Source: a virus
IMG/VR virus record: IMGVR_UViG_3300037621_000475
Location: 1-31,364 of that record
DNA: 31,364 nucleotides
Reading direction: 5' to 3' (one strand)
The position numbers and the translations under genes were made by a program. The notes beneath the pieces were generated by a model. It did no database searches. It was not told the DNA's origin and saw only the letters and a list, made by a program, of their open reading frames with translations. This document shows positions 234 through 31,364 of this stretch, one piece after another (within the stretch, counting starts at the first letter, position 1; each line of letters opens with the position of its first letter).

Positions 234-262
234 ATTATACAGAATTGTCTAGGTATTGTCTA
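234..262 (-). promoter_or_regulatory. sigma70-like promoter for formate dehydrogenase
   Basis: On the minus strand a -35 box TAGACA (257-262) is followed after 17 nt by a perfect -10 box TATAAT (234-239). Predicted transcription starts near 227, giving a leader of about 18 nt that contains AGGAG. The promoter overlaps the uvdE stop codon (235-237). Confidence 0.65.
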
Positions 263-1275: not shown

Positions 1276-1281
1276 GCTCAT

Positions 1282-6555: not shown

Positions 6556-7076
6556 TATCTTAGGAACTCACGATAATCGAGATCATAAAGCATTGGATTT
6601 ATTTTATGTACACCTATTAGGAATAGGCAAAAACTACTCACAGACGAACCTCTGCCTACACCCCATACTATGTTGTTTGCTCGTAAAGTATCAACAAAGT
6701 ACATAAGAAACTGCAACACTTTTATAAATTTCTTTTTTTCAAACAATTCGTATTCTGATTGAACACGTTTTTTTTCGTTTTCATTTTGACATTTGTCTAG
6801 TAACCATTCAAGTACATTGACTTGGTAGTATTTCTCAGGCATGTACCATTGGTCACAGTTTTTTTCGTCAAACTTTGATAGTGTTTCTCTGTCTGGTACT
6901 GTGTTTATGGCAGGTAGATCTATACCTAGCTTTTTGAGACTGTCGTTATATTTTTTTGTGTCATCAAAAAATAACTTAGAAATATCTGTGTTTGGATTTG
7001 TGTATAGTACGTCAATGGCATCCTGTTCTGTGAATATGCAGTCACCATGATCATTTATTTTTATCTTTGCCGCCAT
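6555..7076 (-). CDS. DnaE-derived fragment (DNA polymerase III alpha, pre-palm segment)
   Basis: 173 aa. Residues about 105-173 align by eye with the segment of bacterial DnaE that leads into the palm: EYELFEKKKFIKVLQFLMYF, a spacer, then VWGVGRGSSVSSFCLFLIG and INPMLYDLDYREFL. The DnaE counterpart is the PGRGSGAGSLVAY...DPLxYDLLFERFL region. The protein stops exactly where DnaE continues into the PDFDID catalytic aspartates, so it cannot polymerise. The N-terminal 100 residues are also DnaE-like in style (IDVLYTNPNTDIS, MPEKYYQVNVLEWL). Its stop overlaps the radical SAM start by 1 nt and its start overlaps the preceding gene by 26 nt, so it is a maintained small gene rather than debris. It might bind nucleotide, primer-template or the host polymerase. 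Similarity is fairly clear; role unknown. Confidence 0.65.
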   Translation of the reverse strand: MAAKIKINDHGDCIFTEQDAIDVLYTNPNTDISKLFFDDTKKYNDSLKKLGIDLPAINTVPDRETLSKFDEKNCDQWYMPEKYYQVNVLEWLLDKCQNENEKKRVQSEYELFEKKKFIKVLQFLMYFVDTLRANNIVWGVGRGSSVSSFCLFLIGVHKINPMLYDLDYREFLR

Positions 7077-12661: not shown

Positions 12662-12686
12662 GTGTAAAATCCTCTGTTAATAAGAT

Positions 12687-12694
12687 TATTTAGC
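12687..12694 (-). promoter_or_regulatory. Late-type promoter box GCTAAATA
   Basis: Lies 25 nt upstream of the 476-aa fibre start in a 59-nt gap. Shares TAAATA with the other late-type boxes. Confidence 0.5.
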
Positions 12695-12720
12695 ATCAAT
12701 TCTAAGAACCTAACGTAAAA

Positions 12721-14502: not shown

Positions 14503-14503
14503 G

Positions 14504-20500: not shown

Positions 20501-20674
20501 TGCGTTTGATAATCTTGATGTGATGTTGTTGCCAAAGAATTTTATATCCGCTTTGACAGGTACTAGATCAAAGAAATCACCGAAGTTATTGTTGATCTTA
20601 TTGCCCGACGCATATAACGAATCACCGTCACCGCTGTTCGCTATTACACCGACATCTATTATTTGTTGAGCCAT
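14504..20674 (-). CDS. Giant tail fibre protein, 2056 aa
   Basis: The largest gene in the window. N-terminal module GVIANSGDGDSLYASGNKIN then NNFGDFFDLV (8-37); 38-aa SIGNLTLANASITDSSGAIS repeats at about 150-290; DLKLTPGGTGVVNVSNLTID-type strands to about 480; then roughly 13 units of 105-115 aa to the end. Each large unit has DSFAxxxFRGAKYxISVNN, then LxVHDGTNAFIxxYNEHFS, then TxDIxGxxVRLR and a VxxYRILLxD end. Two versions alternate, one with YNEHFS and one with GPYVSSKGT then LTAxHNGSSTVTL. Such tandem beta domains would build a long shaft or a chain of adhesive beads. A late-type ACTAAATA box lies 9 nt upstream of the ATG, with no clear Shine-Dalgarno. The frame is fully intact over 6.2 kb. 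Long-distance host contact is the likely role. Confidence 0.85.
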   Translation of the reverse strand: MAQQIIDVGVIANSGDGDSLYASGNKINNNFGDFFDLVPVKADIKFFGNNITSRLSNADIDIHPSGTGSIVFPGIRIKDNNIETTRTNDDIRIMASGSGYVVIDGIGFNAGTSIHALDSSIINVNENLIVDGNTSVAGGFDFATTKNFLTGSTFGSLTLADGSITDSSGAISFGDENLTTTGTLTAATGSSIGNLTLANASITDSSGAISFGNENLTTSGTITAATGSTIGNLTLANGSITDSSGTISFGNENLTTSASSMSINSTLTAGSGSITDSTGAISFGNDNLTTSGNMTVDGATTMANMAVSGATSFAAPVTVDNLTFNDNIISTSSNADLKLTPGGTGVVNVSNLTIDSSINFTDNVVKVTTSNADLILSGSGTGSVEINRIDLDDGTIDNTVIGANDPSTGLFSPLNFDTLVIPTKLTFSGNTLSSSRSNDNLEFEASGSGNVKVNGLALPNADGQTGQFLQTDGSGTLSFVGVSIALGVSTIQDSRNTIGFSSKTLIDANTAVGAHESILADTSVIDEFAQSKYDSAWYLVLNRLEAADSAIEYQMQKSVIAQGTADGSTFDAFNGNSQIVRTAANQEIQLTSDIRSATGRVRLLGQGGTLEDGSTTSLINAVQYFRIGLGDDDSSGTQAGSGLAQTKLVADLDSAAATLDSWAIADHRAAKYFVSINNTTTNEVSSTEVMLIHDGTNAFISEYNTIVSNGESTPLATFTADISGGNARLRGANGTAGTCRVTMYRILISDDDSASDGTYVDVLGAQSVTNIGQTTIDTNTFRGDAAPDVSSQKTISSFANTFDSVWFHAIHKDQTNNEFAMHKYSANDGITTDGSTRQVGITDSSVLKTGAMNDINVVDVAINGSNIDLKATGQNDGSTAIKNATSYFALGLGDNTATATSGNIKTHAGVTFGGNNETRVDTLTATGTTTSILSSQRTLAEFTATEYDSVWYLGVSNDIENSGLATFKYSTMHGTTSDGSTQDAFITSSSITRTDSAHAHLETDVDLSGSNIRLLGNGGLHDDSAKSNSNTIAYYRIGLGDNDSSSYSSDDGVADTDVVTVGGIQETEIDHVTAHGTHSTLSHSGTTTCAEFTAGQYDSAWFFVVNKDVANGSFETRKISLMHNLQDSFMTNSAIVNTDEGDNHPVYTTDVVTSGDSTSKVRIRSTDNDGSTVANNNTFAYYRIGLGDDDSTGYSGEQTDESSIARVTIGSTVANIDTFARNANNGAKYFISVNNMETGEVSNLEALVTHDHGSNAFIVSYNEHFSGNNSLITLTADIDGTTVRLRGSATVGSNTRVTAYRILLGDTESAETGSNVRTTATVTDVTSAATTIDTIDATAVDAAHYIIVARTGGASGGGATAMEATVVHDGTNAFVTQYGECSSKTQDDTAHLTLSASHNGSSTVTLQASATNAAGGGVNTIVTAYRIDLKAPESSTATIDSFAIANFRGAKYYISVNNLDSNEVSNVECLVVHDGTNAFINQYNEHFSGSSSLFNGDLTTDIDSGNLRLRCVVANDNTRITFYKVLLADAPTTATHTNTKVIGGVTASSSATTVDTFNDTSVDGAHYVIVGYNSSEAAASIQEANVITEGTDAFVSSGPYVSTKGTNQLDLTAEHDGSNTVTLKASSTSGSSTKVAAYRVHMKAPTGQTDNLDTFAKGSYRGAKYYVSAKETVTGYIDTLEAMVVHDGTNSFITTFNEHFSHGALVTLTTDISGSDVRLRCAGNIPDIQVKFYRVLLADNESGSTGTDFNTVAASTVSSSATAIDTFEDTSFTGASYIIVGFNNSESTASIMEATVLTNGTEAFVHEGPYVSSKGTHQLTLTAAHNGSSTVTLSAASTSGSSTTVNAFRTHMHRGDRDPYTTLDSFAHSSVQAANYLVAMKDGDSRVQFSEVMLVSDGTDAYHTEFDINSESTTAPFITITSAVNGSNVELRAESTIEQSTTITNIFKIPLARAVGTPTNTATLDSFSVSEFRSASYVFSISDSGSGERGLYETGEIRITHDGTTPYMSVFGRTTNSTGDLVEFTTDISGGNVRLRGTISSTNTHEVTVVRRLMVV

Positions 20675-20683
20675 ATCAAGTAA

Positions 20684-20691
20684 TATTTAGT
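20684..20691 (-). promoter_or_regulatory. Late-type promoter box ACTAAATA
   Basis: Lies 9 nt before the start of the 2056-aa fibre gene. Predicted transcription start would leave a leader of only about 4 nt. Confidence 0.5.
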
Positions 20692-20709
20692 GGATTTAGG
20701 GTATATGCG

Positions 20710-20728
20710 AAAACGGCTACTATTAGCC
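20710..20728 (-). terminator. Possible intrinsic terminator
   Basis: On the minus strand GGCTA-ATAG-TAGCC (20715-20728) is a perfect 5-bp stem with a 4-nt loop followed by G and TTTT. It includes the stop codon of the 163-aa structural gene. The U tract is short, so it may only attenuate transcription ahead of the giant fibre gene. Confidence 0.4.
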
Positions 20729-21214
20729 TGTACTGATTTTCAAATCATTGCCGTTACGCCATAATTTGCCAGCAACGTTTGGATCACTGGTTGGAATACT
20801 GCCGGTTAAAAAGATAGATGCTCCATCAAGTTTTACAGCACCTGTTCCTGAAGCGGCAATGTGTATGTCATCATTTGACGCATTTGTTGTGATTTTGTTA
20901 TCTGCTATTGTTACAGCACCTAGAATGATATCACCTGTTCCATTTGCAGTGATTGTGACATCACCGTTTGTGACCAGTGAAGTAATAGCGGAATCTGTTA
21001 TTTGTAATTGATCTATCTCCACAACACCTGTACCGTTTGGTTGGACTTTTATGTCACCGTTGGTTAAGGATGTAGTCAAAAGTCCTGTGTCAGGATCTCC
21101 AACTATCTGATATACTTCTTCAAAATTCGTATTGACCTTGGTCATAGCGGTACGTAAAGTATCGCCTGTCGCTGGATTTCCTGCTGTTCCTGTGTCTATG
21201 TTTAATCTTGCCAT
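20723..21214 (-). CDS. Small fibre-family structural protein
   Basis: 163 aa from the ATG at 21214 (MARLNIDTG); a longer reading from 21271 adds a stretch that overlaps the divergent gene and lacks the module. The N-terminal module is GNPATGDTLRTAMTKVNTNF then EEVYQIVG. Two DIxxxxNGTGxxxID-type beta repeats follow (DIKVQPNGTGVVEIDQLQI, DVTITANGTGDIILGAVTI), and the C-terminus PNVAGKLWRNGNDLKIS is a common end of marine phage fibre proteins. It lacks the long shafts of its larger paralogues, so it may be a cap or short fibre. An AATAAATA box lies 13 nt upstream and there is no Shine-Dalgarno. It is the first gene of the virion run. Confidence 0.8.
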   Translation of the reverse strand: MARLNIDTGTAGNPATGDTLRTAMTKVNTNFEEVYQIVGDPDTGLLTTSLTNGDIKVQPNGTGVVEIDQLQITDSAITSLVTNGDVTITANGTGDIILGAVTIADNKITTNASNDDIHIAASGTGAVKLDGASIFLTGSIPTSDPNVAGKLWRNGNDLKISTG

Positions 21215-21227
21215 AATGTGTTGTACA

Positions 21228-21235
21228 TATTTATT
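21228..21235 (-). promoter_or_regulatory. Late-type promoter box AATAAATA
   Basis: In the 31-nt gap between the divergent 163-aa fibre gene (13 nt away) and the plus-strand Zn-ribbon gene. It would start the whole virion transcript toward lower coordinates. Confidence 0.55.
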
Positions 21236-21245
21236 AAATACTAAT

Positions 21246-21527
21246 ATGTTCATAGAAACGCTCAAGACCATGAGATTGTACGAACGCCAGAGTAAATTGG
21301 GAGTTTATCATACCTTCCATAGGAAAAACACCATATATGTATTCAAGTGTGACTCTTGCGGTGTAACTTTTCTAAGGCCCAGAGCACAGGTTGATCCTGA
21401 CAGGGCATCAAACGATTACAAACACGTTTGTTCCTATTGTGATACCAAAAAGTACGCACAAAAAGTTGGTGTAAAAATGAGAAAAATATACCAGCTGGAT
21501 GCCAGTTCTACTACAAAGACTTTATAG
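21246..21527 (+). CDS. Small Zn-ribbon-like protein
   Basis: 93 aa from the ATG at 21246 (MFIETLKTMRLYERQ); the open frame extends upstream only through the opposite fibre gene. Two cysteine pairs, CDSC (about residues 35-38) and CSYC (about 62-65), spaced about 24 residues apart, form a probable zinc ribbon between basic flanks (FLRPRAQVDPDR, KKYAQKVGVKMRK). I believe similar small proteins occur next to structural genes in T4-like marine phages, but the function is unknown; nucleic-acid binding is plausible. It is one of three plus-strand genes in the window, and its 3' end overlaps the convergent IGNGESR gene by 6 nt. Confidence 0.65.
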   Translation: MFIETLKTMRLYERQSKLGVYHTFHRKNTIYVFKCDSCGVTFLRPRAQVDPDRASNDYKHVCSYCDTKKYAQKVGVKMRKIYQLDASSTTKTL

Positions 21528-22265
21528 TTTCACCCATCTAATATCATCACGTTGGCCATCAACCCATCTACGTAGATCAGCATATATACCGGTTCTGATG
21601 TTGGGTTGGTCAAAGTACCATCTCAAAAATGTATTACCTTCGATGTATTCTTTCCTGTTGATGAAATAGAAATTTGTATCTGGAAATTTCCTAAAAGTCT
21701 GCCTCAGCTGGTACATCCACTCGTACTTAAGGTATGCCTTCATGCTGACACGTGATGGATAGTTAATGGTATTCTTGTACATATTGTTCTGTTCCCTACT
21801 AGGCATATCTCTTTCCCATTGTCGCGAACCCAATATGTCGAATGCCAGTATGACAACATTCTTTACACCTGATTGTGCCGCCATCAATACAGCCGAACAA
21901 CCAGAACCTCGATTCAAAGAAAAATCTATTGTTCGTATTGTGGTGCCTTTCTTGATGTCACCACCTCTCCACATCCTATACAATTTTAGATTCTTTGGCG
22001 TGTCTGTTTCTTTGTCTCCTTCGCAGACGTAATTCCATTTACTGATATCTTCCGGGCCGTGTATCTTTAAATTTGTTTTTGCTTTGTCATGCCATGCTTT
22101 GAGTTCTTCGTACATGGGTTGGTTGACTGCAACTATGTGGTCACAAAGTTCTGGGTTGTCTCGGTAAATGGCATTACATCCGTAAATGATGCCTTTGTCT
22201 TTTAGATCTTTAATTGGGAATATTGGTCTACTTTCACCATTACCTATAACAAATGCGGTGTCCAT
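21522..22265 (-). CDS. IGNGESR-family protein (Rossmann-like, paralogue A)
   Basis: 247 aa. Starts with a hydrophobic strand and IGNGESRPIF (7-16), then GIIYGCNAIYRD (25-36), later SLNRGSGCSAVLMAAQSGVK and VVILAFDILG. This is a Rossmann-like arrangement also seen in MptE/DUF115-like and some glycosyltransferase-related proteins of marine phages. A second copy lies at 27408-28046 with the same IGNGESR and GCNAMFRD motifs, so the phage keeps two. The start overlaps the HesB/IscA stop by 1 nt (TAATG). The possible substrate is a nucleotide sugar or pterin pyrophosphate, but neither is shown by the sequence. Confidence 0.6.
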   Translation of the reverse strand: MDTAFVIGNGESRPIFPIKDLKDKGIIYGCNAIYRDNPELCDHIVAVNQPMYEELKAWHDKAKTNLKIHGPEDISKWNYVCEGDKETDTPKNLKLYRMWRGGDIKKGTTIRTIDFSLNRGSGCSAVLMAAQSGVKNVVILAFDILGSRQWERDMPSREQNNMYKNTINYPSRVSMKAYLKYEWMYQLRQTFRKFPDTNFYFINRKEYIEGNTFLRWYFDQPNIRTGIYADLRRWVDGQRDDIRWVKL

Positions 22266-22600
22266 TAAACACCAAAACTCTCACCACACCCACAGCCGCT
22301 TGATGCATTGGGATTGGATATTTCAAACTGTGATCCAAACACCTCTTCCTTCCAGTCAATTTTTGTGCCTGCCACGTACATCATTGAAGTCTCATCAACA
22401 ACAAATTTCCCTGTGTGCCAATCTTCTATGTGGTCACCTTCTGCTATGCTTTCTTTAGTGTCAGCAAATCCCCACTCGTATTTGAATCCTGCACAGCCGC
22501 CGCCGTTAACTGCTAGGCTGACCGCATATTTGCCCGGATTCTTTTCCAGCAATTTTTCAATTTGATTCTTTGCTTCATCTGTTATTTCAAATAAGTTCAT
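22265..22600 (-). CDS. A-type iron-sulfur carrier (HesB/IscA family)
   Basis: 111 aa from the ATG at 22600 (MNLFEITDEAKNQIEKLL). The extra 18 residues in the longer reading run into the upstream gene and are not family-like. The three conserved cysteines are present: C36 in NGGGCAGFKYEW and C103/C105 in SGCGCGES at the C-terminus. The family carries [2Fe-2S] or [4Fe-4S] clusters to target enzymes. With two radical SAM proteins in the window, supplying their clusters during infection is a reasonable idea. HesB-like genes are known in marine T4-like phages. It is coupled to paralogue A downstream by a 1-nt overlap. Confidence 0.9.
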   Translation of the reverse strand: MNLFEITDEAKNQIEKLLEKNPGKYAVSLAVNGGGCAGFKYEWGFADTKESIAEGDHIEDWHTGKFVVDETSMMYVAGTKIDWKEEVFGSQFEISNPNASSGCGCGESFGV

Positions 22601-22608
22601 ACTATTAA

Positions 22609-22938
22609 TTATCTGTCCTTGTTCCCCATATTTGCAATACCGACAGCCAACCAAAAACGTGTTGCATCTTTTTTCTTTTCAAAACTCATGAAACTGTTCT
22701 GATCCTCCCAATGGTTCCGGGGGTTCTCTATGTGTCCTGCAGGTTCAAACCACCAACCCCATCTGCCCTCACAATTTCGTTGACACCACTCGATGCATTC
22801 ACCCGCTATTCCGTTGCTGTTCATGTCAACATTGTGTTCAAACTGTTTCTGGTATCCGCAATCCTCAGATATATCGTTGAGATCAGCTATTACTTTTTTA
22901 ACTTTTACTCTGCCGTAACTACTACCATTGTGTGGCAT
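22609..22938 (-). CDS. Hypothetical Trp/Cys-rich protein
   Basis: 109 aa. Central CIEWCQRNCEGRWGWWFEPA (48-67) followed by HWEDQNSFMSFEKKKDATRF (77-96) is a pattern I have seen in small conserved marine myovirus proteins, but I cannot name a function. Cysteines at about 27, 48, 52 and 56 could bind metal. The start has a ribosome site (GGAG about 9 nt upstream) and lies within the last 17 nt of the upstream radical SAM gene, so the two are coupled. Confidence 0.65.
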   Translation of the reverse strand: MPHNGSSYGRVKVKKVIADLNDISEDCGYQKQFEHNVDMNSNGIAGECIEWCQRNCEGRWGWWFEPAGHIENPRNHWEDQNSFMSFEKKKDATRFWLAVGIANMGNKDR

Positions 22939-23944
22939 GATCTAAACTCCATTTTTTTGCAGAACATTTTTCACCACACTCTCTGGGTGCTGTTTCTGAC
23001 TGTATATCTCCAAATAATTTCTTCCACATTGAGTCGTCTAGCACTTCTCCCAGGGTCTGCTGGGGTTTGATGTAATCAAAAATATCTTTGTTGTGTCCAT
23101 ATCTTAGTGCCGTCCAACAACAAGGATAGAACTTTCCTTTCGCATTCAAGTATAGCCCTTTGTTGCCAATCATACACAAAGGTATAATGGACGGAGTACT
23201 ATCTGTATTATAAAACCTTTTTGTAAAAATATCAACACAGTTGTCATGCCATTTTTTACCAGTCAGCTTGGTAGTTGTTCTAGTGAATCTCCCAGAAGCT
23301 ATAAACTTATCGCTTGGTTGAAGTGGATCATTTTCTGGATACGTTCCGTAATTTTTTCCAAACTTAGAACTGAGTGTCAATTGGAAGCTGTCAAATTTGT
23401 GTTGCTTTGCCATATCCTTCATGATCTCTAGCTTGTCTTCGTTGAACTTGAATGCAATCGCGGCCCAGGTCTTGTATGCTTTGCTTCCACGTAGGGCATT
23501 AATGCCCAACATTATTGAATACCAGTTGCAGTTGACCCTGTACAGGTTATTTGATTGTTGATCCCAACCGTCTAGTGAAAAATGTATGTGATCTTTTTCG
23601 TTTAGGATGTTATCAAGTTGTTCCCACCAAGATTTTGTCTTATAAGATCCGTTGGTAATAATCACAAATTGAACTTGACCATTGTGTTCCCTTAACCATG
23701 CAAGTATTTTTAAAAGATCTTTTGCATATATAGGATCACCATCGTCACCACAGAATGTTATTTTCCGCACTTCTGTCAGCAGTTTGCCGGTCCAATTTTG
23801 CTTGAACCATTCCAGACTTAAATCTGTATTTGTAAGGCCTTCAGGGACTTCCTGCCTAGAACATCTAGGACATTTCAGACTGCATTTAGAACACAGTTCT
23901 ATGTGCCAATGCTCCAAAGGCCAATTATGTATGTTTTCAAACAT
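22922..23944 (-). CDS. Radical SAM/SPASM protein
   Basis: 340 aa. CSLKCPRC gives CX3CX2C with C21, C25 and C28 near the N-terminus; FCGDDGDP (about 63-70) replaces the usual GGEP loop. A C-terminal SPASM-like cysteine set is visible: LCMIG, GKFYPCCW and ECGEKCSAKK. SPASM radical SAM enzymes often modify peptides, but others act on small molecules or sugars. Its neighbours are a glycosyltransferase-like gene and an IGNGESR-family gene, which suggests surface or sugar modification. A 139-nt upstream gap holds a hairpin and a late-type box, so it has its own structured leader. There is no Shine-Dalgarno. Family is sure, substrate unknown. Confidence 0.85.
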   Translation of the reverse strand: MFENIHNWPLEHWHIELCSKCSLKCPRCSRQEVPEGLTNTDLSLEWFKQNWTGKLLTEVRKITFCGDDGDPIYAKDLLKILAWLREHNGQVQFVIITNGSYKTKSWWEQLDNILNEKDHIHFSLDGWDQQSNNLYRVNCNWYSIMLGINALRGSKAYKTWAAIAFKFNEDKLEIMKDMAKQHKFDSFQLTLSSKFGKNYGTYPENDPLQPSDKFIASGRFTRTTTKLTGKKWHDNCVDIFTKRFYNTDSTPSIIPLCMIGNKGLYLNAKGKFYPCCWTALRYGHNKDIFDYIKPQQTLGEVLDDSMWKKLFGDIQSETAPRECGEKCSAKKWSLDHATQW

Positions 23945-24083
23945 AACGTATTTTACACTCTAATTTTTTAATTGTAAAGCTAGTGGAGATTCCACTTACG
24001 GCCTGGCCCACGCAGTTAAGACATCAAGAGGTCAGTGTTTTTTGCCGACGTCACACACTGTGGCGTTGCATGTGTATTTATTA
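23945..24083 (-). promoter_or_regulatory. Structured 139-nt leader of the SPASM gene
   Basis: The longest non-coding stretch in the window. A late-type AATAAATA box (24075-24082) sits right after the stop of the upstream glycosyltransferase gene. Downstream of it are a CACA-GTG-TGTG hairpin (about 24052-24062) and a perfect AGTGGA-3 nt-TCCACT hairpin (23982-23996), 38 nt before the ATG. No tRNA fold, glutamine-riboswitch motif or small reading frame was recognised. It could be a regulatory leader or a small RNA. Confidence 0.4.
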
Positions 24084-24782
24084 CTATTTCCAGTTATCAA
24101 TTACGAATTGATCTGCACATTCCATTGGGTTCGGTTGCCCATGGAAGACTGCTACTCTGTTTTCGCTTTTCACTGTCGCAGGTTTTTTAAAAAACCATTT
24201 GCCGTTCTTGTCCCTTAATTTTGTGTCTTTGAATCCTATCATCTCCCATTTGTATGAACGTATCCAGTCGTCGGGCCAGTGTGTTATTTGATCCTTACCT
24301 GCTTTCATGATCCAGTCTTGATCTCCCCAATTCTGTTTCATTATTCTTTCATGGTTGCTTACAAAATCTGTGTACAGGTGATTCATGGTTCCTGCCTCCC
24401 AACGCATACAGCTGGAGTTACTTTGTTTCCAGTCTGCTACCCTACATCTGTTGAAGTCCCTGATTATCATGAACTTGCCTGGATTGTGAGTGAATAATGG
24501 ATCTATGTTATTGTGTATTATCACATCCAGATCAAAAAATAATATATTGCCCTTTAATGGCATGTCTGGACTGAACATCCACAACTTGCTCCACCACGTT
24601 TTGATCCATGGTTCGCTAGGAAACTTTATTGTTTTAATTTCAGGATTAAGCCCTTTGATGTCGTCTGTTATACAGTGGAATTCGAAAGGTACTGTGGTGT
24701 GCCTCTTGACCATACTGTAAAGGATGTTGGCATATGGTGATGGATACTTGTTCCCCCACTTAACGCATACTACGTGATTCAT
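24084..24782 (-). CDS. Glycosyltransferase-like protein (GT-A type)
   Basis: 232 aa. NILFFDLDVIIHNNIDPLF (79-97) carries a D84-L-D86 metal and nucleotide-sugar motif, preceded by WSKLWMFS as in GT8-like enzymes. CITDDIKGL (37-45) fits the first Rossmann unit, and GDQDWI plus a late VAVFHGQPNP His complete the expected pattern. It would transfer a sugar to a phage or host acceptor. The ribosome site GAGGAT is about 5 nt upstream. The start lies inside the last 23 nt of the upstream gene, so translation is coupled. It may work with the SPASM protein and IGNGESR proteins. Confidence 0.7.
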   Translation of the reverse strand: MNHVVCVKWGNKYPSPYANILYSMVKRHTTVPFEFHCITDDIKGLNPEIKTIKFPSEPWIKTWWSKLWMFSPDMPLKGNILFFDLDVIIHNNIDPLFTHNPGKFMIIRDFNRCRVADWKQSNSSCMRWEAGTMNHLYTDFVSNHERIMKQNWGDQDWIMKAGKDQITHWPDDWIRSYKWEMIGFKDTKLRDKNGKWFFKKPATVKSENRVAVFHGQPNPMECADQFVIDNWK

Positions 24783-25941
24783 ATCCTCGCTTTAATCCTT
24801 TTATTTGCATTTCTTTCCAGTCGTCACTGTCAAGCGTGTATGGAAAAACATTCTCCCAACTTCTTGAACCAATTGTGTGAATACTTTTTATATTTAAATT
24901 ATCTTTCATCATATGATATACTTCTGTGAACGGTTTGTTTTGAAATCCAATTTTCATATCCACTTGTCCAATTTTTATATAACCTAGTGAAAGTTTAGGA
25001 TCATCCCAATCATAATTGTTTTGTTTTAGCCATTTTCTAAAATCATCCATCTCTTGTTTTTTAAAATCATGTGTGTTTTCAGTGATAGTATCTCCCCATT
25101 CTATATCAAACTCGCCAGAATAATACTTTTGATGATTGATTTCTGAACATAATGCTTCGGTCATGACCGGTGCGTGTTCGTCTCTATAAACTTCAAACAA
25201 TGTTTTGCCCACTTGTGACCAATGCAAGTATACACCACCCATTTCTCTATCATACCTATTTTGTTTAAACAGCTCATAGTCCTCTTGGTGCAAATCGTGT
25301 CTGGGTGCATTTAAAAATGTAGTAATTTGTGATGGCCTCATCCACTCAGGTTCAACAACACTTTTCCTGTATGACAGAACCCAGCTCTCAATCTCATGAC
25401 ATATATTGTTCAATTGTCTAATTGCATACTTGGTTTCGTTGTCTGCTTGTTTGTAGAAGTCTGATATTTTCCATGCTGTACCTTGTAGTTCTTCAAAATA
25501 CCTGTGCAATAAATTGCAGGCGTCGTGCTTTAGTCTAAGTCCTGGAGTTTCTTTTTCTGGTCCTAGGCCTACTTTCAACCTAGAACTAAATTGAAAATCA
25601 TCTACTGTAAATGGATTGATATATTCATATGGTGGATCAAACTTGAAAGAATTGATCTGAGCTATATGTTTGTTCAAATCACTACATAAAAAAGATAAAT
25701 TTCTCTTTGAATCAGCCCAACCTAAAAAACAAAAATTTTTTTCTAATATTCTTTTCTTCTCGAGATTGTCCTTGAGAGCTTCAATAAATCTTCTGCCTAG
25801 GGGTGTATCGTATAAATGAATCCTTATTTGCTTGTTGTCATATTGTACAACAATGTTTTCAAATAAAAAATTAAATTCTGCTTTTTTCTCTATAGATGGC
25901 ACTGTTGGCTCCGTGTTCGGCACATTCCACTTCCACGACAT
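24760..25941 (-). CDS. Hypothetical protein, 393 aa
   Basis: Not recognised. I start at 25941 (MSWKWNVPNTEPTVPSIEKK); the frame stays open to 26016 but the added residues look like out-of-frame queD. The protein is rich in charged and aromatic residues, with LFENIVVQYDNKQIRIHLY near the N-terminus, a long helical middle (HRYFEELQGTAWKISDFY), an R-E-MGGVYLHWSQVGKTLF stretch, and GYIKIGQVDMKIGFQ near the C-terminus. No signal or membrane segment. It overlaps queD by 71 nt and the glycosyltransferase gene by 23 nt, so it is embedded in a translation-coupled series. I believe homologues occur in marine T4-like phages; role unknown. Confidence 0.7.
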   Translation of the reverse strand: MSWKWNVPNTEPTVPSIEKKAEFNFLFENIVVQYDNKQIRIHLYDTPLGRRFIEALKDNLEKKRILEKNFCFLGWADSKRNLSFLCSDLNKHIAQINSFKFDPPYEYINPFTVDDFQFSSRLKVGLGPEKETPGLRLKHDACNLLHRYFEELQGTAWKISDFYKQADNETKYAIRQLNNICHEIESWVLSYRKSVVEPEWMRPSQITTFLNAPRHDLHQEDYELFKQNRYDREMGGVYLHWSQVGKTLFEVYRDEHAPVMTEALCSEINHQKYYSGEFDIEWGDTITENTHDFKKQEMDDFRKWLKQNNYDWDDPKLSLGYIKIGQVDMKIGFQNKPFTEVYHMMKDNLNIKSIHTIGSRSWENVFPYTLDSDDWKEMQIKGLKRGYESRSMR

Positions 25942-26329
25942 AGCATCTATTGTCAGTTTTCTCTCTGATAAGTTTGTCCGCGAATTCAAATGCATGTTTG
26001 GCAAACATCTCAGCACCTACACCATCGAACATTCTTATTTCTGCTAGATCTAATTTTTCTAGTTCTTTGAACTTTTCAAGGTGTGGGTCATTTTTGTCCA
26101 ATGCAAGTTTATGATCGAAGTTATCCTCCAGCCATGCCTTTAAAGGCTTCAAACCTCCAAAGTCCACTGCCCAGTTCTTGTCGTCTAGTGCATCACAACC
26201 AAATGTGAATCTAAACTGTAAACTGTATCCGTGTAGCAAATGACAATGTGAGTGATCTGCATTAGGTTGCCTGAACACACAGGCTAGTCCTATGTTGTGT
26301 CCGTATGTTTTAGTTGAGTAGTAAGTCAT
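25871..26329 (-). CDS. queD: QueD-like 6-carboxytetrahydropterin synthase
   Basis: 152 aa. QueD/PTPS family: DHSHCHLLHGYSLQ (25-38) supplies C29 and zinc-binding His residues, WAVDFGGLK (53-61) and FDHKLAL (71-77) are signature motifs, and E135/E138-H139 lie in VECAEHGAN near the C-terminus. It belongs to a subgroup where the canonical HGH reads HGY and extra His residues (H26, H28) precede it. QueD makes 6-carboxytetrahydropterin on the route to preQ0 and queuosine or 7-deazaguanine DNA. No queC, queE, folE or transglycosylase gene lies in the window, so this step would feed host or elsewhere-encoded enzymes. The ribosome site AAGGAG is strong, and the leader can form a pseudoknot. Confidence 0.85.
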   Translation of the reverse strand: MTYYSTKTYGHNIGLACVFRQPNADHSHCHLLHGYSLQFRFTFGCDALDDKNWAVDFGGLKPLKAWLEDNFDHKLALDKNDPHLEKFKELEKLDLAEIRMFDGVGAEMFAKHAFEFADKLIREKTDNRCYVVEVECAEHGANSAIYREKSRI

Positions 26330-26347
26330 CTTTTCTCCTTAATTGAT

Positions 26348-26392
26348 GACTTGCAGAGTGTTTATAGAGGGATGAAAGTCTTTGAGTCCTCT
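26348..26392 (-). promoter_or_regulatory. Possible pseudoknot riboswitch in the queD leader
   Basis: On the minus strand AGAGG (26388-26392) pairs with CCTCT (26366-26370), and within that loop GACTT (26376-26380) pairs with AAGTC (26348-26352) lying downstream. This forms an H-type pseudoknot ending 9 nt before the AAGGAG site. CCTCTATAAA right after stem 1 resembles preQ1-I riboswitches, but loop lengths and the A-rich tail differ from the consensus. Pairing is seen; ligand control is inferred. Confidence 0.35.
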
Positions 26393-26394
26393 CA

Positions 26395-26655
26395 TTAGTG
26401 CAATCTCTTTTTAATATCCTCGAGATCAAATCCTAATTCTGTTTCTGACTTGTTTCTTATCTTGTCAGTAAGTTCGTTTGGTATATTTAACTCACCATCA
26501 ATAATGCTCTTTAAAAAATGTATTAATATTGTAAACTCAGGCCTCTGTGACAACGTTTCCGGGTCAATTCCATGTTTCTCCATTGCATTAAGCATGGCTT
26601 CTGTCACATCAATAAGAGAGTTAATACTTTTGTTGTGTTTTTCAAAATGTTTCAT
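26395..26655 (-). CDS. Small hypothetical protein, 86 aa
   Basis: Helical and acidic: KHNKSINSLIDVTEAMLNAM, EFTILIHFLKSIIDG, then SETELGFDLEDIKKRLH. No motif recognised. It follows the Sm-like gene with a 1-nt TAATG overlap, so both are translated together, and 65 nt separate it from queD. The TATAAT touching its start comes from the Val-stop end of the Sm-like gene. A partner of the Sm-like protein is possible. Confidence 0.65.
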   Translation of the reverse strand: MKHFEKHNKSINSLIDVTEAMLNAMEKHGIDPETLSQRPEFTILIHFLKSIIDGELNIPNELTDKIRNKSETELGFDLEDIKKRLH

Positions 26656-26960
26656 TATACAATAATTTTTGGTTTCTCAGGTGTTTTGATAGTCTGGAAC
26701 ACTCTTTTGTATTCTTCTTCTATTTTTGAATTAATAACTGAGACGCACTGTATCTTGTCTTTGGCGATAGTAATTTCTTTTTCTTGATCTGCAGTTGAGA
26801 AGAAAGTACCAAATGCAAGGCCTTGTGGCCCTTGCATTAATGTCAATGCTTTTTTAATTTCAATTGTAGTCTCGGTTTGTGATTGCAGAGTAGAGATCAC
26901 CTCTTCACCATGCATTAATTTAAGAGTTATAAGATCTCCATCTTTATATTTTTCAAACAT
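26655..26960 (-). CDS. Sm-like (LSm/Hfq-type) fold protein
   Basis: 101 aa. The N-terminal half follows the Sm1 pattern of strands: GDLITLKLMHGEEVISTLQS then TTIEIKKALTLMQ, with a second block EITIAKDKIQCVSVINSKIE. Glycines and the LxxGEEV turn fit Sm-like proteins, and I believe small proteins of this kind occur in T4-like cyanophages; RNA binding is not proven. The start at 26960 is fixed by a perfect promoter placing +1 exactly on the ATG and by the absence of a Shine-Dalgarno. It is downstream of the MBD4-like glycosylase gene (14-nt gap). Confidence 0.55.
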   Translation of the reverse strand: MFEKYKDGDLITLKLMHGEEVISTLQSQTETTIEIKKALTLMQGPQGLAFGTFFSTADQEKEITIAKDKIQCVSVINSKIEEEYKRVFQTIKTPEKPKIIV

Positions 26961-26966
26961 AATACT

Positions 26967-26994
26967 ATTATAAACTATACTGTCAATTTGTCAA
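26967..26994 (-). promoter_or_regulatory. Consensus sigma70 promoter, leaderless layout (Sm-like gene)
   Basis: Perfect TTGACA (26989-26994), 16-nt spacer, perfect TATAAT (26967-26972), then 6 nt to ATG. Predicted +1 is 26960, the A of the start codon. The -35 lies inside the 3' end of the glycosylase gene. Confidence 0.7.
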
Positions 26995-27385
26995 TGTATT
27001 TCCTCAATTCCTTGTCTTGCACATTAGGTGGAATATGGTTGAAGAAGAAAATTTGGTAACTGTCAGAGCCATACTTGCCAATACCGTGCAGGTCACTTGC
27101 TTCTTTACCGTCCCAGCTCAAAAATTCAACACTCATGTTTCTAATTCTTTTAGCTCTAACTTTCCACATGCCTAATGGCTTGAGTAAATTTTCTTGAGTT
27201 TTTTGTCGGCCTCTTATAAAAGATACTGGATCAGGATAACGTGCAAATAACTTGGGCAATATCTGTTTAACTTGTTTTCTGTAAGTCAAATTAAGACACA
27301 TTACAGCAACCATGTGTTTCCACTTTTTGTATGGTCCACGTATCTGTTCTTGCACCATTAAATGATCAACCATTTTTTTACTCAT
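26975..27385 (-). CDS. MBD4-like DNA glycosylase (HhH-GPD)
   Basis: 136 aa, the size of the isolated catalytic domain of vertebrate MBD4. The match by eye is strong: MVAVMCLNLTYRKQVKQILP, KLFARYPDPVSFI, NLLKPLGMWKVRAKRI, then the helix-hairpin-helix LHGIGKYGSDSYQIFF (99-114) and QDKELRKYIDKL (123-134), where D124 sits like the MBD4 catalytic Asp. MBD4 removes T or U opposite G, so a phage version could repair deaminated cytosine or 5-methylcytosine, or act on modified bases. No metal-cluster cysteines as in MutY/Nth. It starts at 27385 with a perfect leaderless-type promoter. Assignment fairly sure; substrate unknown. Confidence 0.75.
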   Translation of the reverse strand: MSKKMVDHLMVQEQIRGPYKKWKHMVAVMCLNLTYRKQVKQILPKLFARYPDPVSFIRGRQKTQENLLKPLGMWKVRAKRIRNMSVEFLSWDGKEASDLHGIGKYGSDSYQIFFFNHIPPNVQDKELRKYIDKLTV

Positions 27386-27391
27386 ACTACA

Positions 27392-27419
27392 ATTATATTT
27401 GTTATTTTTATTTTGTCAA
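27392..27419 (-). promoter_or_regulatory. Consensus sigma70 promoter, leaderless layout (glycosylase)
   Basis: Perfect TTGACA (27414-27419), 16-nt spacer, perfect TATAAT (27392-27397), 6 nt, ATG. Predicted +1 is 27385, the first base of the start codon. The -35 overlaps the 3' end of the upstream gene. Confidence 0.7.
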
Positions 27420-28046
27420 CTGCTTGTTAACGAACTTGGCAAGACCTTCGTAGGTGTCTTGGAAGACATTTTTATTAGCCTTCCATTCTTCTGGCATTTT
27501 CCAACCATCTTCATTTACCACAATCCATCTGCAATCCGAATGCTCGAAAAGTTTGTTGAACTGATATATCCAATAACTTGGATCGACAGGTCTTTTAATA
27601 TAGGTGTAGCCTGTGCTACCTTTGTATATGTTGTTGACATTTTCTGGCTTTTGTTCCTTGCCCAAACCATATAGGTCCATGCCAACTAGGAATATGGCTT
27701 TTGGTTTGAAGCTCATGCCGACCAGTGCCGCAAACTGTCCGGTACCCCAATGGAAAGGATTATCCTGTCTCTTGTCTCCTTCGTAGGGCAACTCCGGCAC
27801 TTTCTTTACATTAGACCAAAAGGCAAATTGTTTGTACCAGTCTTCTCTGGTATAGATTGTTGTATTTTTACCAACTGTGTTAGCGGCCTCTTGGCACATA
27901 TGCCTGTCAGCACAAACCACATATTCTAGGTTGTGATCTCTAAACATGGCATTACAGCCAACCATTGTTGTAACACTTTTGAGTGGTGTTATATCAAAAC
28001 CTCTTCTGCTCTCACCGTTTCCTATTACACTTACAAACTTGGTCAT
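27408..28046 (-). CDS. IGNGESR-family protein (Rossmann-like, paralogue B)
   Basis: 212 aa. Shares IGNGESRRGFDI (8-19) and MVGCNAMFRDHNL (28-40) with the 247-aa protein at 21522-22265, and has YVVCADRHM, WGTGQFAALVGMSFKPKAIF and FLVGMDLYGLG as Rossmann-like strands. Same probable fold, clear paralogue, but the second half differs (TGYTYIKRPVDPSYWIYQF and WIVVNEDGWKMP). Likely a different substrate. It has an 81-nt upstream gap with a late-type box at its far end and no Shine-Dalgarno. The role is unknown; proximity to repair genes is not informative. Confidence 0.6.
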   Translation of the reverse strand: MTKFVSVIGNGESRRGFDITPLKSVTTMVGCNAMFRDHNLEYVVCADRHMCQEAANTVGKNTTIYTREDWYKQFAFWSNVKKVPELPYEGDKRQDNPFHWGTGQFAALVGMSFKPKAIFLVGMDLYGLGKEQKPENVNNIYKGSTGYTYIKRPVDPSYWIYQFNKLFEHSDCRWIVVNEDGWKMPEEWKANKNVFQDTYEGLAKFVNKQLTK

Positions 28047-28084
28047 AATGTTGTTTAAATACCCCTTTAGACTGCTTTAGAGCG

Positions 28085-28094
28085 GCGTATACGC
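28085..28094. repeat. Perfect 10-bp palindrome GCGTATACGC
   Basis: Lies in the 81-nt gap (28047-28127) between the 87-aa gene and paralogue B, flanked by GCTTT and AAAGC that can pair around it on the minus strand. It could be a leader hairpin, an operator, or a weak terminator without a U tract. Confidence 0.35.
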
Positions 28095-28127
28095 ATGGTA
28101 AAAGCACTCTTGGAATAGTTGTATATC

Positions 28128-28391
28128 CTATTTATTGGCCATAATTAAATGCCAGACTGTCTTGTAGTGTTTCCATGCTTTACCAAGTGCAGGATACTTT
28201 CTCCTCATTTTGACAGCGTGTTCGTTTACCATATCATCCTCATCTCGAACAGTTTCTAAATCTTTTGAATATTGACTTTGTGAAACTAGCCTGCCTCTAC
28301 TTCCGTCTTTTTTCTGCACATAAACAGTCTCCCCACCATCAGGTGATATGTATATTTCTTCTCTTCTCTTTAATTTTTTTACTTTTCTCAT
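28128..28391 (-). CDS. Small basic hypothetical protein
   Basis: 87 aa, strongly basic (MRKVKKLKRREEIYISPDGG, then VYVQKKDGSRGRLVSQSQYS, later KMRRKYPALGKAWKHYKTVW). No family recognised; the charge suggests nucleic-acid contact. Translation is coupled to the HIT gene by a TAATG overlap at 28391. Real coding is likely from this coupling. Confidence 0.6.
   Translation of the reverse strand: MRKVKKLKRREEIYISPDGGETVYVQKKDGSRGRLVSQSQYSKDLETVRDEDDMVNEHAVKMRRKYPALGKAWKHYKTVWHLIMANK
28129..28136 (-). promoter_or_regulatory. Late-type box AATAAATA ahead of paralogue B
   Basis: Overlaps the stop codon of the 87-aa gene. A transcript from here would carry a leader of roughly 75 nt with the GCGTATACGC palindrome. 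The layout matches the SPASM gene leader at 23945-24083. Confidence 0.4.
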
Positions 28392-28798
28392 TAGTAATAA
28401 TTAGTGTGGTCACCAGAGGGTACAGATAATCTTATACCGTTATGAGAATCTCCCTCATGGTCGTTTTTGTTTCTTGGGATAAAATGTATGTGTGGCCAAA
28501 ATATGCTCTGTCCTGCCGCGGCACCTCTGTTTTGTCCAACGTTGAATCCATCCATCTTGCCTTCTTCTATCCATTTTTCTCCGCAGTAGTAGGCCAGTTT
28601 GTATGCTTCTGCTATTGTGACTGGATCATTTTTCTTAGGTACAAAAAGTAGATGTCCTTTTACTACCGGATACTTGTCTCGGAATACGCCACAATGTTCG
28701 TTTTCAAATATAGGGTTGTCATTACCAACCCATGTTGATTCATTATAGCTGTCAATTTTTTCCCAGGGTTTCTTGTAGATAGGTTTTTTTGATTGCAT
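28391..28798 (-). CDS. HIT-family protein
   Basis: 135 aa. VKGHLLFVPKK (47-57) and GQNRGAAAGQSIFWPHIHFI (88-107) are the HIT nucleotide-binding and active-site segments; NRGAAAGQ matches the family strongly. The motif is normally HxHxH. Here the first His is Trp (W101) while H103, which should carry the nucleotidyl intermediate, and H105 remain. Family members hydrolyse nucleotide phosphoramidates, ApnA or similar small molecules. The phage role is unknown. The 5' end overlaps the upstream 122-aa gene by 47 nt, and the stop is coupled to the 87-aa gene. A shorter start is possible but would remove family residues only if far downstream. Confidence 0.8.
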   Translation of the reverse strand: MQSKKPIYKKPWEKIDSYNESTWVGNDNPIFENEHCGVFRDKYPVVKGHLLFVPKKNDPVTIAEAYKLAYYCGEKWIEEGKMDGFNVGQNRGAAAGQSIFWPHIHFIPRNKNDHEGDSHNGIRLSVPSGDHTNYY

Positions 28799-29120
28799 TT
28801 GTTTTTATTATTCCTATCTTTATATTACTTGAATTTGGCCTGTGTCGCAACCTTATTTGTTCCCAACGTTTGGTTTTAGTGACACTTGGATTGTATGCAT
28901 TGATGTCCAAAAGATTCACAATAGCTTTCCTTACTTTTTCAGCACCACCGTGTTTCTTACAGGTATCTGATCTTCCAACTTCTACTGTTGTGTCGTTGAT
29001 CTTGATTTTGTACACACATGGTAATCTAATCCATTTTGTTACAGGATCTTTTTTGTGTTTAATTTTGTAGTCTTGTATGGTGTAAAGGTCTTGTATGGAA
29101 TACCATTTAGTATCTGTCAT
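28752..29120 (-). CDS. Basic hypothetical protein, 122 aa
   Basis: Start taken at 29120 (MTDTKWYSIQDLYTIQDYKI); the longer open frame upstream is the shadow of the exonuclease gene. Very basic, with WIRLPCVYKIKINDTTVEVG then RSDTCKKHGGAEKVRKAIVN and a Lys/Arg-rich C-terminus. I see no named family; it could bind nucleic acid. It overlaps the exonuclease gene by 14 nt and the HIT gene by 47 nt, typical of coupled phage genes. Confidence 0.6.
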   Translation of the reverse strand: MTDTKWYSIQDLYTIQDYKIKHKKDPVTKWIRLPCVYKIKINDTTVEVGRSDTCKKHGGAEKVRKAIVNLLDINAYNPSVTKTKRWEQIRLRHRPNSSNIKIGIIKTNAIKKTYLQETLGKN

Positions 29121-29646
29121 TTTTAATACCCAACTGCTGAAAAACTTGCTGAACTTTTCTTGCTTGGAAGTAACAGTCTTCGAGTGCGTTGTGTAGTCCT
29201 GTTCTCTTTTCATTTGGATCACGAGGCACAAGACTGAACAGTGTTCTGGAGTCTCTGATCTGCCAGTAGTTCCAGGGCACAGGCACATCCATCTGTGCGT
29301 AAAAATTTTGTAGTATTGCGTAGTCAAACAAAGGACCTTGACACCAAAATACGTCTACACCCACGCTCCACTTGTTCAATTGTTTAATGAAGTATTTCAA
29401 ATCTATTCTGTCATGGTCGCCTAGTGCTTCTTCCCTCACGTCCTCTGCCTGTTTGCCCCACCATTCAACTGTGTCCTCCATTATATCTCGGCCCATGGCA
29501 GTTTGTGAATCAACATCTATTCTGTAATATAATCCTTGTGATGGTTCTATATTCTTGTACGGATCAAATTTCACACCACCTATCGTAAGTATGGTAGCAT
29601 TTGGTCGTGTGGAAAGTGTTTCAAGATCTATCATTGCGTGAATCAT
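29107..29646 (-). CDS. DEDD-type 3'-5' exonuclease
   Basis: 179 aa. DEDDh exonuclease residues are in place: D7 and E9 in MIDLETLSTRPN, D108 in GPLFDYAILQ, H152 and D157 in LHNALEDCYFQAR. The TIGGVKFDPY strand and an RTLFSL helix fit the Rv2179c/DexA-like group found in T4-like phages. T4 DexA is a 3'-5' DNA exonuclease, while Rv2179c-like members act on RNA, so the substrate is open. The start at 29646 lies exactly at the predicted +1 of a sigma70-like promoter and has no Shine-Dalgarno. It heads the gene run that continues to the 122-aa protein and HIT. Confidence 0.85.
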   Translation of the reverse strand: MIHAMIDLETLSTRPNATILTIGGVKFDPYKNIEPSQGLYYRIDVDSQTAMGRDIMEDTVEWWGKQAEDVREEALGDHDRIDLKYFIKQLNKWSVGVDVFWCQGPLFDYAILQNFYAQMDVPVPWNYWQIRDSRTLFSLVPRDPNEKRTGLHNALEDCYFQARKVQQVFQQLGIKNDRY

Positions 29647-29652
29647 ACCAAT

Positions 29653-29681
29653 ATTATACTATAGAAAACGTGTGTCGTCAA
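29653..29681 (-). promoter_or_regulatory. sigma70-like promoter, leaderless layout (exonuclease)
   Basis: TTGACG (29676-29681), 17-nt spacer, perfect TATAAT (29653-29658), 6 nt, ATG. Predicted +1 is 29646, the A of the start codon. It lies wholly in a 35-nt intergenic gap. Confidence 0.7.
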
Positions 29682-29948
29682 CTAGGCGTCTATGCCTGAA
29701 TGTCCTGGATCTGGGTTAAACAATGATGGCTTATTACCATTATCCATGAATTTTTGGAATTCGTCTAGTTGTTGTTCGTTGAAGCAGTGTATCTCACCAG
29801 ATGACATTGGGTACATCTGTTGCATATATGCTGTTGTCTGTAGGGCAGTTGAATAGCAGGTATCATAATTGCTGAAAGTAGATGTAGGATCAAATACGGC
29901 ATCACAATCTATACCAAAACATATGATCATTACCATTACAAATTTCAT
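29682..29948 (-). CDS. Small exported-looking protein
   Basis: 88 aa. Begins MKFVMVMIICFGIDCDAVFD, a short basic start and hydrophobic run that may be a signal peptide or membrane anchor. Cysteines at about 10, 15, 31 and 55 could form disulfides outside the cytoplasm. The C-terminus is Pro/Asp-rich (FNPDPGHSGIDA). No family recognised. A TAAATA box at 29954-29959 is 5 nt upstream and may give a leaderless late message. It lies between the exonuclease and the small membrane genes, where lysis-related proteins could be expected. Confidence 0.55.
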   Translation of the reverse strand: MKFVMVMIICFGIDCDAVFDPTSTFSNYDTCYSTALQTTAYMQQMYPMSSGEIHCFNEQQLDEFQKFMDNGNKPSLFNPDPGHSGIDA

Positions 29949-29985
29949 ACAAATATTTAAACTATAAAATACAGAAGTTAAACTA

Positions 29986-30219
29986 CTACTTCTTACGTTT
30001 TTTGCTAAACGTTCGCACCTTGGTTTGCAGTCGAATTAGATCGTTGTCAAGTAATCTTACTCTGTCAATCAATTTTATGAGTGTGGCCGATGTTGATGAC
30101 AACTTAGGTTTGATTTGATTTACAATGTAGTTGTAGAGATACCAGATGAAATATGCAAGAAAGAAAACTGCAACTACCGGAAATCCATAATCGTTGATTA
30201 GTGTTACTATGTCCATCAA
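29986..30219 (-). CDS. Small membrane protein with coiled coil (A)
   Basis: 77 aa. One transmembrane helix near the N-terminus (FPVVAVFFLAYFIWYLYNYI, 13-32) follows a short MDIVTLINDYG, like YvrJ-type or holin-like peptides. The rest is a basic coiled coil ending in RTFSKKRKK. Its ATG overlaps the stop of the 92-aa gene by 4 nt, and both have the same plan (short N-terminus, one hydrophobic helix, coiled coil), so they look like tandem paralogues or partners. A holin pair is one possibility. No lysin gene is in view. Confidence 0.65.
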   Translation of the reverse strand: MMDIVTLINDYGFPVVAVFFLAYFIWYLYNYIVNQIKPKLSSTSATLIKLIDRVRLLDNDLIRLQTKVRTFSKKRKK

Positions 30220-30494
30220 TCTTTCCTTGCGTCCACTTTGCCGTCAGCTCTTGCAATCCTGTCTGTGTCCACAGGCAATCCAAGTCGTTCAGATACTTCT
30301 TGGTCAATTTTTAATATGTCATTATTCATTGTTTTTACTCTGTTGTCTAGTTGTGTAATGACATTTTCAATAAAAGTAATGCTACTTACAACCGAGCCCA
30401 AGATATACTTGATAATGATCATTATAAAAGCACCAAGTCCCACTGTTGCCGCAATAGGCATGCCAAGTTCTGCTACTAGATTCCAAAAGCTCAT
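30216..30494 (-). CDS. Small membrane protein with coiled coil (B)
   Basis: 92 aa. SFWNLVAELGMPIAATVGLG then AFIMIIIKYILGSVVSSITF gives a transmembrane region at about 10-36. A heptad-rich helix follows (ITQLDNRVKTMNNDILKIDQ) and then a charged tail (RIARADGKVDARKD). Coupled to gene A by an ATGA overlap. A GTTAAATA box at 30503-30510 lies 8 nt upstream of the ATG. The arrangement suits a membrane complex, perhaps a holin and its modulator, but this is not shown by the sequence alone. Confidence 0.65.
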   Translation of the reverse strand: MSFWNLVAELGMPIAATVGLGAFIMIIIKYILGSVVSSITFIENVITQLDNRVKTMNNDILKIDQEVSERLGLPVDTDRIARADGKVDARKD

Positions 30495-30505
30495 TATATG
30501 TGTAT

Positions 30506-31364
30506 TTAACGTGTTAGTGTGTACACGTTCACAGGTTCGGTTTTGCCCTTGACTGTGATGCTGTCAACAAACTCAAAAGGAAACTTATCGTCGATTACCT
30601 TTTTGGTCTGCTCACCTACTATCAAAGTGTGTCCTAGTGTCTTACTTGCACTCTCTAGTCGTGCCGCAAGATTAACAGGATCACCTATGACGGAGTAATC
30701 AAACCTCTGATCTGATCCCATGTTACCAACCAGTGCCTCCCCTGAGTTGATACCAATGCCTATCTTTATGTTTGGTAAATTTTCTGCAGTAAGTTGTGTG
30801 TTCAGCATGGCCAATTCTGATTGCATCTGCGAAGCAGTAAGCACTGCCAACATCTGATGATCCGCAGTCTTTAGTGGTGCGTTCCAGAATGCCATGATAC
30901 AGTCACCCATGAACTTGTCCACAGTACCACCATTGCCAATTATGACGTTGGTCATGCGTGTTAGGAATCTATTGATCAGTTTTGTAAGTTCTGCTGGATT
31001 GTCCTTGTACTGTTCTGATATGGGAGTGAACCCTCTGATGTCGCAGAACATGAAAGTCATGTATCTTGTTTCTCCACCCAGTTTCAATAAGCCAGGATCT
31101 TTCTGTAACTTCTTGACCATTCTGGGATCTAGGTAGTGTTCAAACTGTTTCTTGATCTGTTGTCGTAGTCTGCTCTGTGTCGCGAAGTTGTTGTACACTG
31201 AATGAGCCCAGATTAAAAACACAGACAGCACAATCCAAGATGGATCCACAAGGAACCCTTTGTTTGTGTATGCCATGAATGCGCCGTACACAACACCAAT
31301 CTCCACGAAGAACAACAGAGGCACTGCTAGTAGCACACTGGTTCTCGGCAGTACAAGTATTAAC
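30506..31364 (-). CDS. Class III adenylate cyclase with N-terminal membrane segments (5' end outside window)
   Basis: The frame remains open to the last base. A GTG at 31336 could start a 276-aa protein, but codons further up continue a hydrophobic segment, so the gene is probably longer, possibly with a CHASE2-type sensor. Numbered from that GTG: hydrophobic helices at about 1-20 and 32-48; then a linker FEHYLDPRMV typical of CHASE2 cyclases; then the catalytic domain. Active-site residues are present: D99 in FCDIRGFT and D143-D145 region in KFMGDCIMAFW (metal), K141 (base recognition), and YSVIGDPVNLAARLE with D219, N222 and R226. This looks catalytically complete for ATP to cAMP conversion. 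Cyclases are unusual in tailed phages, and altering host cAMP would be the inferred effect. Confidence 0.8.
   Translation of the reverse strand, partial: LILVLPRTSVLLAVPLLFFVEIGVVYGAFMAYTNKGFLVDPSWIVLSVFLIWAHSVYNNFATQSRLRQQIKKQFEHYLDPRMVKKLQKDPGLLKLGGETRYMTFMFCDIRGFTPISEQYKDNPAELTKLINRFLTRMTNVIIGNGGTVDKFMGDCIMAFWNAPLKTADHQMLAVLTASQMQSELAMLNTQLTAENLPNIKIGIGINSGEALVGNMGSDQRFDYSVIGDPVNLAARLESASKTLGHTLIVGEQTKKVIDDKFPFEFVDSITVKGKTEPVNVYTLTR

Follow-up and report, generated by a model that had tools for sequence, protein, structure and literature searches.

The gene that runs off the edge of the 31,364-nucleotide stretch of DNA analysed here (the window) encodes a CHASE2-type class III adenylate cyclase, probably active, in the genome of a large marine phage. 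In related phages it closes a cassette for an adhesin and a reduced type I-like secretion apparatus, and we see about an even chance that the product of this last gene is a dedicated envelope sensor whose cAMP output is shared. This reading rests mainly on the observation that the CHASE2 domain stays with its cassette while the catalytic output is shared between cassette types.

Phage origin of the window

The contig is phage, as the sequence-only reading had taken it to be. The window is a virus record and is collinear with a 172-kb contig (G003) that encodes a phage-type DNA polymerase, a ribonucleotide reductase and a Clp-like ATPase. The cyclase gene does not lie in host flanking DNA. Since searches for gp23 (PF07068), phrog_2 and Terminase_6N found none in the partial records of the window type, assignment of the lineage relied on the DNA polymerase and further genes. 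For the G003 polymerase the nearest counterparts are those of Sinorhizobium phage Phosso (469 kb; 49%) and Agrobacterium phage Atu_ph07 (490 kb; 45%), both of which are also matched by the Clp-like ATPase, and the best matches of a 173-aa polymerase-III-like protein in the window (6555-7076) come from phages of 340-440 kb. The lineage is probably an uncultured marine one of jumbo type, and is not firmly placed.

Features of the window are collected in the table. G003 also encodes a TonB-dependent outer-membrane receptor (L188:7397-9259) with Plug and beta-barrel domains, which is BtuB-like at approximately 24% identity. On the minus strand of the window, positions 11231-20674 encode three consecutive fibre-like proteins of 476, 593 and 2056 aa with repeated GSITDSSGAISFGNENLTTTGT-type modules, and this region is partially similar to the same region of G003.

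Table. Features of the window.
Feature	Position	Strand	Remark
Endonuclease-family protein	235-1281		looks UvsE-like
GroES/head-morphogenesis-like protein	3555-4019		
QueD-like pterin synthase	25871-26329	-	
Small membrane protein, 77 aa	29986..30219	-	phrog_18771 (E 1.6e-24); paralogue of 92-aa neighbour
Small membrane protein, 92 aa	30216..30494	-	phrog_18771 (E 1.5e-26); next gene downstream of cyclase
CHASE2-adenylate cyclase, C-terminal 285 aa	30506..31363	-	5' end beyond window edge
Transition-state Arg R235	30659..30661	-	alignment with relatives
Transition-state Asn N231	30671..30673	-	alignment with relatives
Second base-recognition residue Ser224 (class IIIb position)	30692..30694	-	alignment with solved cyclases and relatives
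Second metal-binding Asp D154	30902..30904	-	alignment with relatives
Base-recognition Lys K150	30914..30916	-	alignment with solved cyclases and relatives
Metal-binding Asp D108	31040..31042	-	alignment with relatives

Identity of the cyclase and its active site

The reading frame stays open to the window edge over 285 aa and has hydrophobic segments N-terminal to the catalytic domain, in agreement with the membrane segments noted from the sequence alone. It matches the Pfam domain Guanylate_cyc (E = 5e-21), with scores of 73-76 bits for this frame and its full-length copy against a curated cut-off of 21.9, and PHROG 35576, an unannotated phage family of 681 positions (E 1.5e-94). The closest solved structures are class III cyclases (6fht, E = 4e-38; CyaB, 3r5g, 3.6e-34). 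An exact copy of the final 38 bases of the window occurs in one other IMG/VR contig, L085, which has 12,776 bp in common with window positions 18589-31364 at 99.945% and extends 1,134 nt beyond. This contig of the same species supplies the missing 5' end: the full cyclase (L085:11921-13843, minus strand) has 641 aa with CHASE2 and Guanylate_cyc domains, and the CHASE2 domain (PF05226, E 1.8e-40), which had been suspected from the partial gene, sits outside the window. The dN/dS ratio of the cyclase is approximately 0.05 (0.04-0.08; Nei-Gojobori), which points to purifying selection and shows that the reading frame is not a chance one.

The sequence-only reading had described a complete catalytic set with a Lys/Asp base-recognition pair. 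Five of its six residues (D108, D154, K150, N231 and R235) stand, and the corresponding positions are near-invariant among approximately 110 phage relatives; the base pair is Lys/Ser, and the claimed Asp is wrong. The Asp within the 'IGDPVN' motif is not at the base-binding position, which is held by Ser224. This residue aligns with a Thr of Pseudomonas aeruginosa CyaB (3r5g), and the position is occupied by Ser in 97, Thr in 14 and Asp in one of 112 relatives. An adenylate cyclase of class IIIa (K/D) is thus ruled out; going by its residues, the window cyclase is of class IIIb type with a K/T(S) base pair, and the K/S pair suggests cAMP, made from ATP, as the product. P. aeruginosa CyaB, itself of class IIIb, has the same catalytic fold family and K/T(S) pair, but its N-terminal region is different and it is not a phage protein.

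Two departures were seen among other phage cyclases. In the cyclase of the cultured Melnitz phage (L083:13005-15053), Asp occupies the base position and the transition-state Asn is replaced by Ser, so that its activity may be altered or absent. Several curli-type cyclases (L083, L064, L066, L038, L060, L071) carry a C-terminal extension of approximately 60-90 aa that ends in W(D/N)xxxxAT(S/T)K or similar, whereas the window clade is without it.

Phage cyclases and curli cassettes

Cyclases in phages had been thought rarely described, a view that does not hold: a single-protein scan found at least 598 IMG/VR stretches encoding relatives, and among cultured phages the gene is annotated in HTVC008M and the Melnitz phages, where it directly follows the CsgF, CsgG, curlin and FecR genes. 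A phage cluster of curli, FecR and adenylate cyclase genes has been described (PMC9599517, 2022), as have phage curli genes (PMC7029224, PMC9004378). Matches of the cyclase, HlyD and ABC proteins to Acinetobacter and Salmonella 'phages' seem to come from bacterial contigs labelled as phage; they were set aside because of housekeeping annotations in the single region that was read and, for the others, host-type annotations and record sizes.

The pelagiphage curli (T8SS)-FecR-cyclase cassettes resemble those of the window clade in having a terminal CHASE2-class III cyclase, a FecR domain and envelope fibre or secretion genes directly upstream of the cyclase, and cyclases of both kinds together are monophyletic against the bacteria sampled. 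They differ in that adhesin, TolC, ABC and HlyD genes replace CsgF, CsgG and curlin in the window clade, whose CHASE2 domains form a clade of their own (22-30% identity) and whose phage background is of jumbo type. In L085 it is the end of HlyD, and not a CsgF, CsgG or curlin gene, that lies directly upstream of the cyclase.

A type I-like cassette with a reduced transporter

In L085 the C-terminus of HlyD stops at the start codon of the cyclase, which places the window cyclase in a type I-like cassette; the cassette genes beyond this HlyD end are inferred from relatives. There the gene order is adhesin, TolC, ABC, HlyD, sometimes a protein of approximately 121 aa, and cyclase, with an adhesin of 1.0-1.7 kaa, an ABC membrane domain of 248-251 aa and HlyD of 232-241 aa (323 in one case). 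Pfam and NCBIfam domains in these relatives correspond to a FecR and cadherin adhesin, OEP, an LssB-like ABC permease and HlyD; the matches of HlyD to TIGR01843 (E 1.2e-48) and of the TolC-type protein to PF02321 (E 3.5e-51) both score below the NCBIfam curated cut-offs. The linkage is tight: the cyclase lies 0-559 nt downstream in 29 of the 30 contigs carrying this HlyD. The exception, L214, has no adjoining type I cyclase, and its HlyD is followed by a convergent curli cassette. In G015 (18,211 bases; L206/L215) a type I cassette with its cyclase lies beside a convergent curli/FecR cassette with a second cyclase. The searches of genuine cultured phages turned up no genes for ABC, HlyD or TolC, and a phage type I secretion-cyclase cassette was not found in the open-access literature searched, relative to which the adhesin-TolC-ABC-HlyD-cyclase cassette seems undescribed.

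It is noticeable that the transporter of this cassette has been reduced. Aligned with bacterial homologues, the phage ABC protein is missing the entire nucleotide-binding domain, together with the loop that joins membrane segments four and five and would contact it; Walker A is absent from all 17 full-length phage ABC proteins, the relatives of 148 kb and 172 kb gave no ABC_tran match above the cut-off, and phage HlyD is approximately half the size of its bacterial counterpart. Of the components of a type I system, the relatives thus possess HlyD and TolC, and lack an ABC protein with a nucleotide-binding domain. These features make export by the phage cassette alone doubtful. The low dN/dS ratios of ABC (0.05-0.15) and HlyD (0.06) nevertheless indicate that both are maintained genes.

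Bacterial counterparts

The nearest cellular relatives among the matches listed are mostly from Alphaproteobacteria, at 31-38% identity. Full-size ABC, HlyD, TolC, FecR proteins or FecR/cadherin adhesins are encoded nearby in 40 of the 72 bacterial loci listed. Chance is an unlikely source of this linkage, since the share of reading frames matching cassette genes declines with distance from the cyclase, being 21.6% within 2 kb and 7.7, 6.2, 0.7 and 0% in the 2-kb intervals that follow, the last covering 8-10 kb. The CHASE2-cyclase loci of Tardiphaga (L103), Afipia (L112) and Roseovarius (L119) have the same gene set as the phage cassette; the order adhesin-ABC-HlyD-cyclase is shared by the first two, and a FecR and cadherin adhesin was confirmed in the first and third. 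In contrast with the phage proteins, bacterial ABC proteins have 498-760 aa with a full ATPase (approximately 250 aa in phages) and bacterial HlyD has 417-464 aa, or 571-574 in some; bacterial and phage cyclases are approximately 35% identical. The literature found contains no description of this bacterial arrangement, in which a CHASE2-cyclase adjoins type I secretion genes and a FecR/cadherin adhesin.

Separate histories of the two cyclase domains

All trees were built by a quick method. In the full-length tree, phage cyclases are separated from the sampled bacteria (support 100) and those of type I group in a single clade (100). The two domains tell different histories: the CHASE2 tree divides type I from curli cyclases by a single change (100), while the catalytic-domain tree needs at least five changes between them, and forcing the type I catalytic domains together was rejected (AU p = 7e-56, lnL difference 129). 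The conflict in topology rules out that the catalytic domain is just slower-evolving. The CHASE2 domain of the window cyclase shares 63-93% identity with those of its nearer type I relatives, 37-40% with those of the L019/L020 branch and 22-30% with curli types; for the catalytic domain, identity to the curli-linked L010, L014, L015, L016 and L214 is 76-84%. CHASE2 therefore tracks cassette type, and catalytic domains have been exchanged between cassette types. The exchange partners share genomes, as two cyclases are encoded on single phage contigs in both G015 (L206/L215) and G017 (L010). Co-inheritance of the domain with the cassette, together with the conserved neighbourhood, suggests physical coupling.

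Discussion

What such a cyclase does for the phage can be explained in several ways. The sequence-only reading suggested retuning of host catabolite control or interference with cyclic-nucleotide signalling. Under the first, more cAMP in the host would redirect its transcription and metabolism to the benefit of the phage, and the secretion genes would be incidental. The active site is intact, and as no cNMP-binding protein was detected among the phage records searched, the target would probably be a host regulator; but the cyclase is tightly linked to adhesin and secretion cassettes in phages as well as bacteria, consistently as their last gene in phages, and its CHASE2 domain follows cassette type, which a free-standing metabolic gene would not need. 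The gene's surroundings do not suggest catabolite control, and we regard this explanation as unlikely. We hold it quite improbable that the cyclase and small membrane proteins time lysis by sensing the envelope state or superinfection, in the way proposed for the Melnitz CsgGF pore. A lysis-timing role was proposed for phage curli genes by Buchholz et al. (PMC9004378), and the adjoining 77-aa protein has a weak holin-like match (E 5e-4 over 23 aa), yet this match spans one membrane segment only, and at other loci the small membrane proteins found at the same place occur in either orientation and are not always present. For the tandem phrog_18771 proteins of the window, a link to the cyclase is not established beyond their position.

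A role in defence or counter-defence, either as a pyrimidine (Pycsar-like) cyclase or as a decoy against host cyclic-nucleotide immunity, has very little probability in our estimation. PADLOC PycC models do match the catalytic domain (E 2.4e-29), but they match bacterial CHASE2-cyclases equally (E ~1e-28), so the match is generic; moreover, the pyrimidine-specificity residues (PMC11224242) are absent, the K/S pair is that of class IIIb adenylate cyclases, and the cassettes showed no gene for a Pycsar effector. Judged from residue positions and this bacterial control, membership of PycC is unlikely. It is just as improbable that the cassette is captured bacterial DNA in decay and without present function: the lost ATPase of the ABC protein and the shortened HlyD could be read in this way, but dN/dS is 0.04-0.15 for ABC, HlyD and cyclase, and the 17 full-length copies examined all retain the cassette order and the ABC length of 248-251 aa.

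Most likely, the cyclase reports the state of a phage-made envelope structure and does not simply serve sugar metabolism. During infection, the phage would make the FecR/cadherin adhesin, the TolC-type protein, the ATPase-less ABC membrane domain, the shortened HlyD and, from the final gene, the inner-membrane CHASE2-cyclase. The CHASE2 domain, predicted to be periplasmic, would sense the envelope complex of its own cassette or the binding target of the adhesin, and the cytoplasmic class IIIb domain would make cAMP for a cAMP receptor of the host. Such a receptor is the likely target, as a search of 15 phage records turned up no cNMP-binding protein; we infer both this target and what CHASE2 senses. 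Display of the adhesin is presumed, and is uncertain owing to the missing ATPase: either export is driven by an ATPase of the host, or the complex serves for anchoring and signalling. Curli cassettes in other phages may work on the same principle, with another fibre and another CHASE2 domain.

There is a precedent for such signalling in Sinorhizobium meliloti, whose CHASE2 cyclases CyaD1, CyaD2 and CyaK raise cAMP when an external protein is present; the signal is relayed to them by the outer-membrane protein NsrA, and they act through the CRP-family regulator Clr (PMC13001267). These are, however, cellular proteins of a plant-signal system for which no secretion cassette is described. We tentatively propose, as a possibility well short of an even chance, that the ATPase-less mini type I apparatus of marine jumbo-type phages is mainly a signalling or anchoring complex for the adhesin, that CHASE2 reads this complex, and that the cyclase domain is a swappable output held in common with the curli systems. 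If the sensor reading is true, phages build and monitor a structure in the host envelope, which would be a little-explored form of control over infected ocean cells, and the co-inheritance of sensor and cassette, with interchangeable outputs, would give a direct handle on what is sensed.
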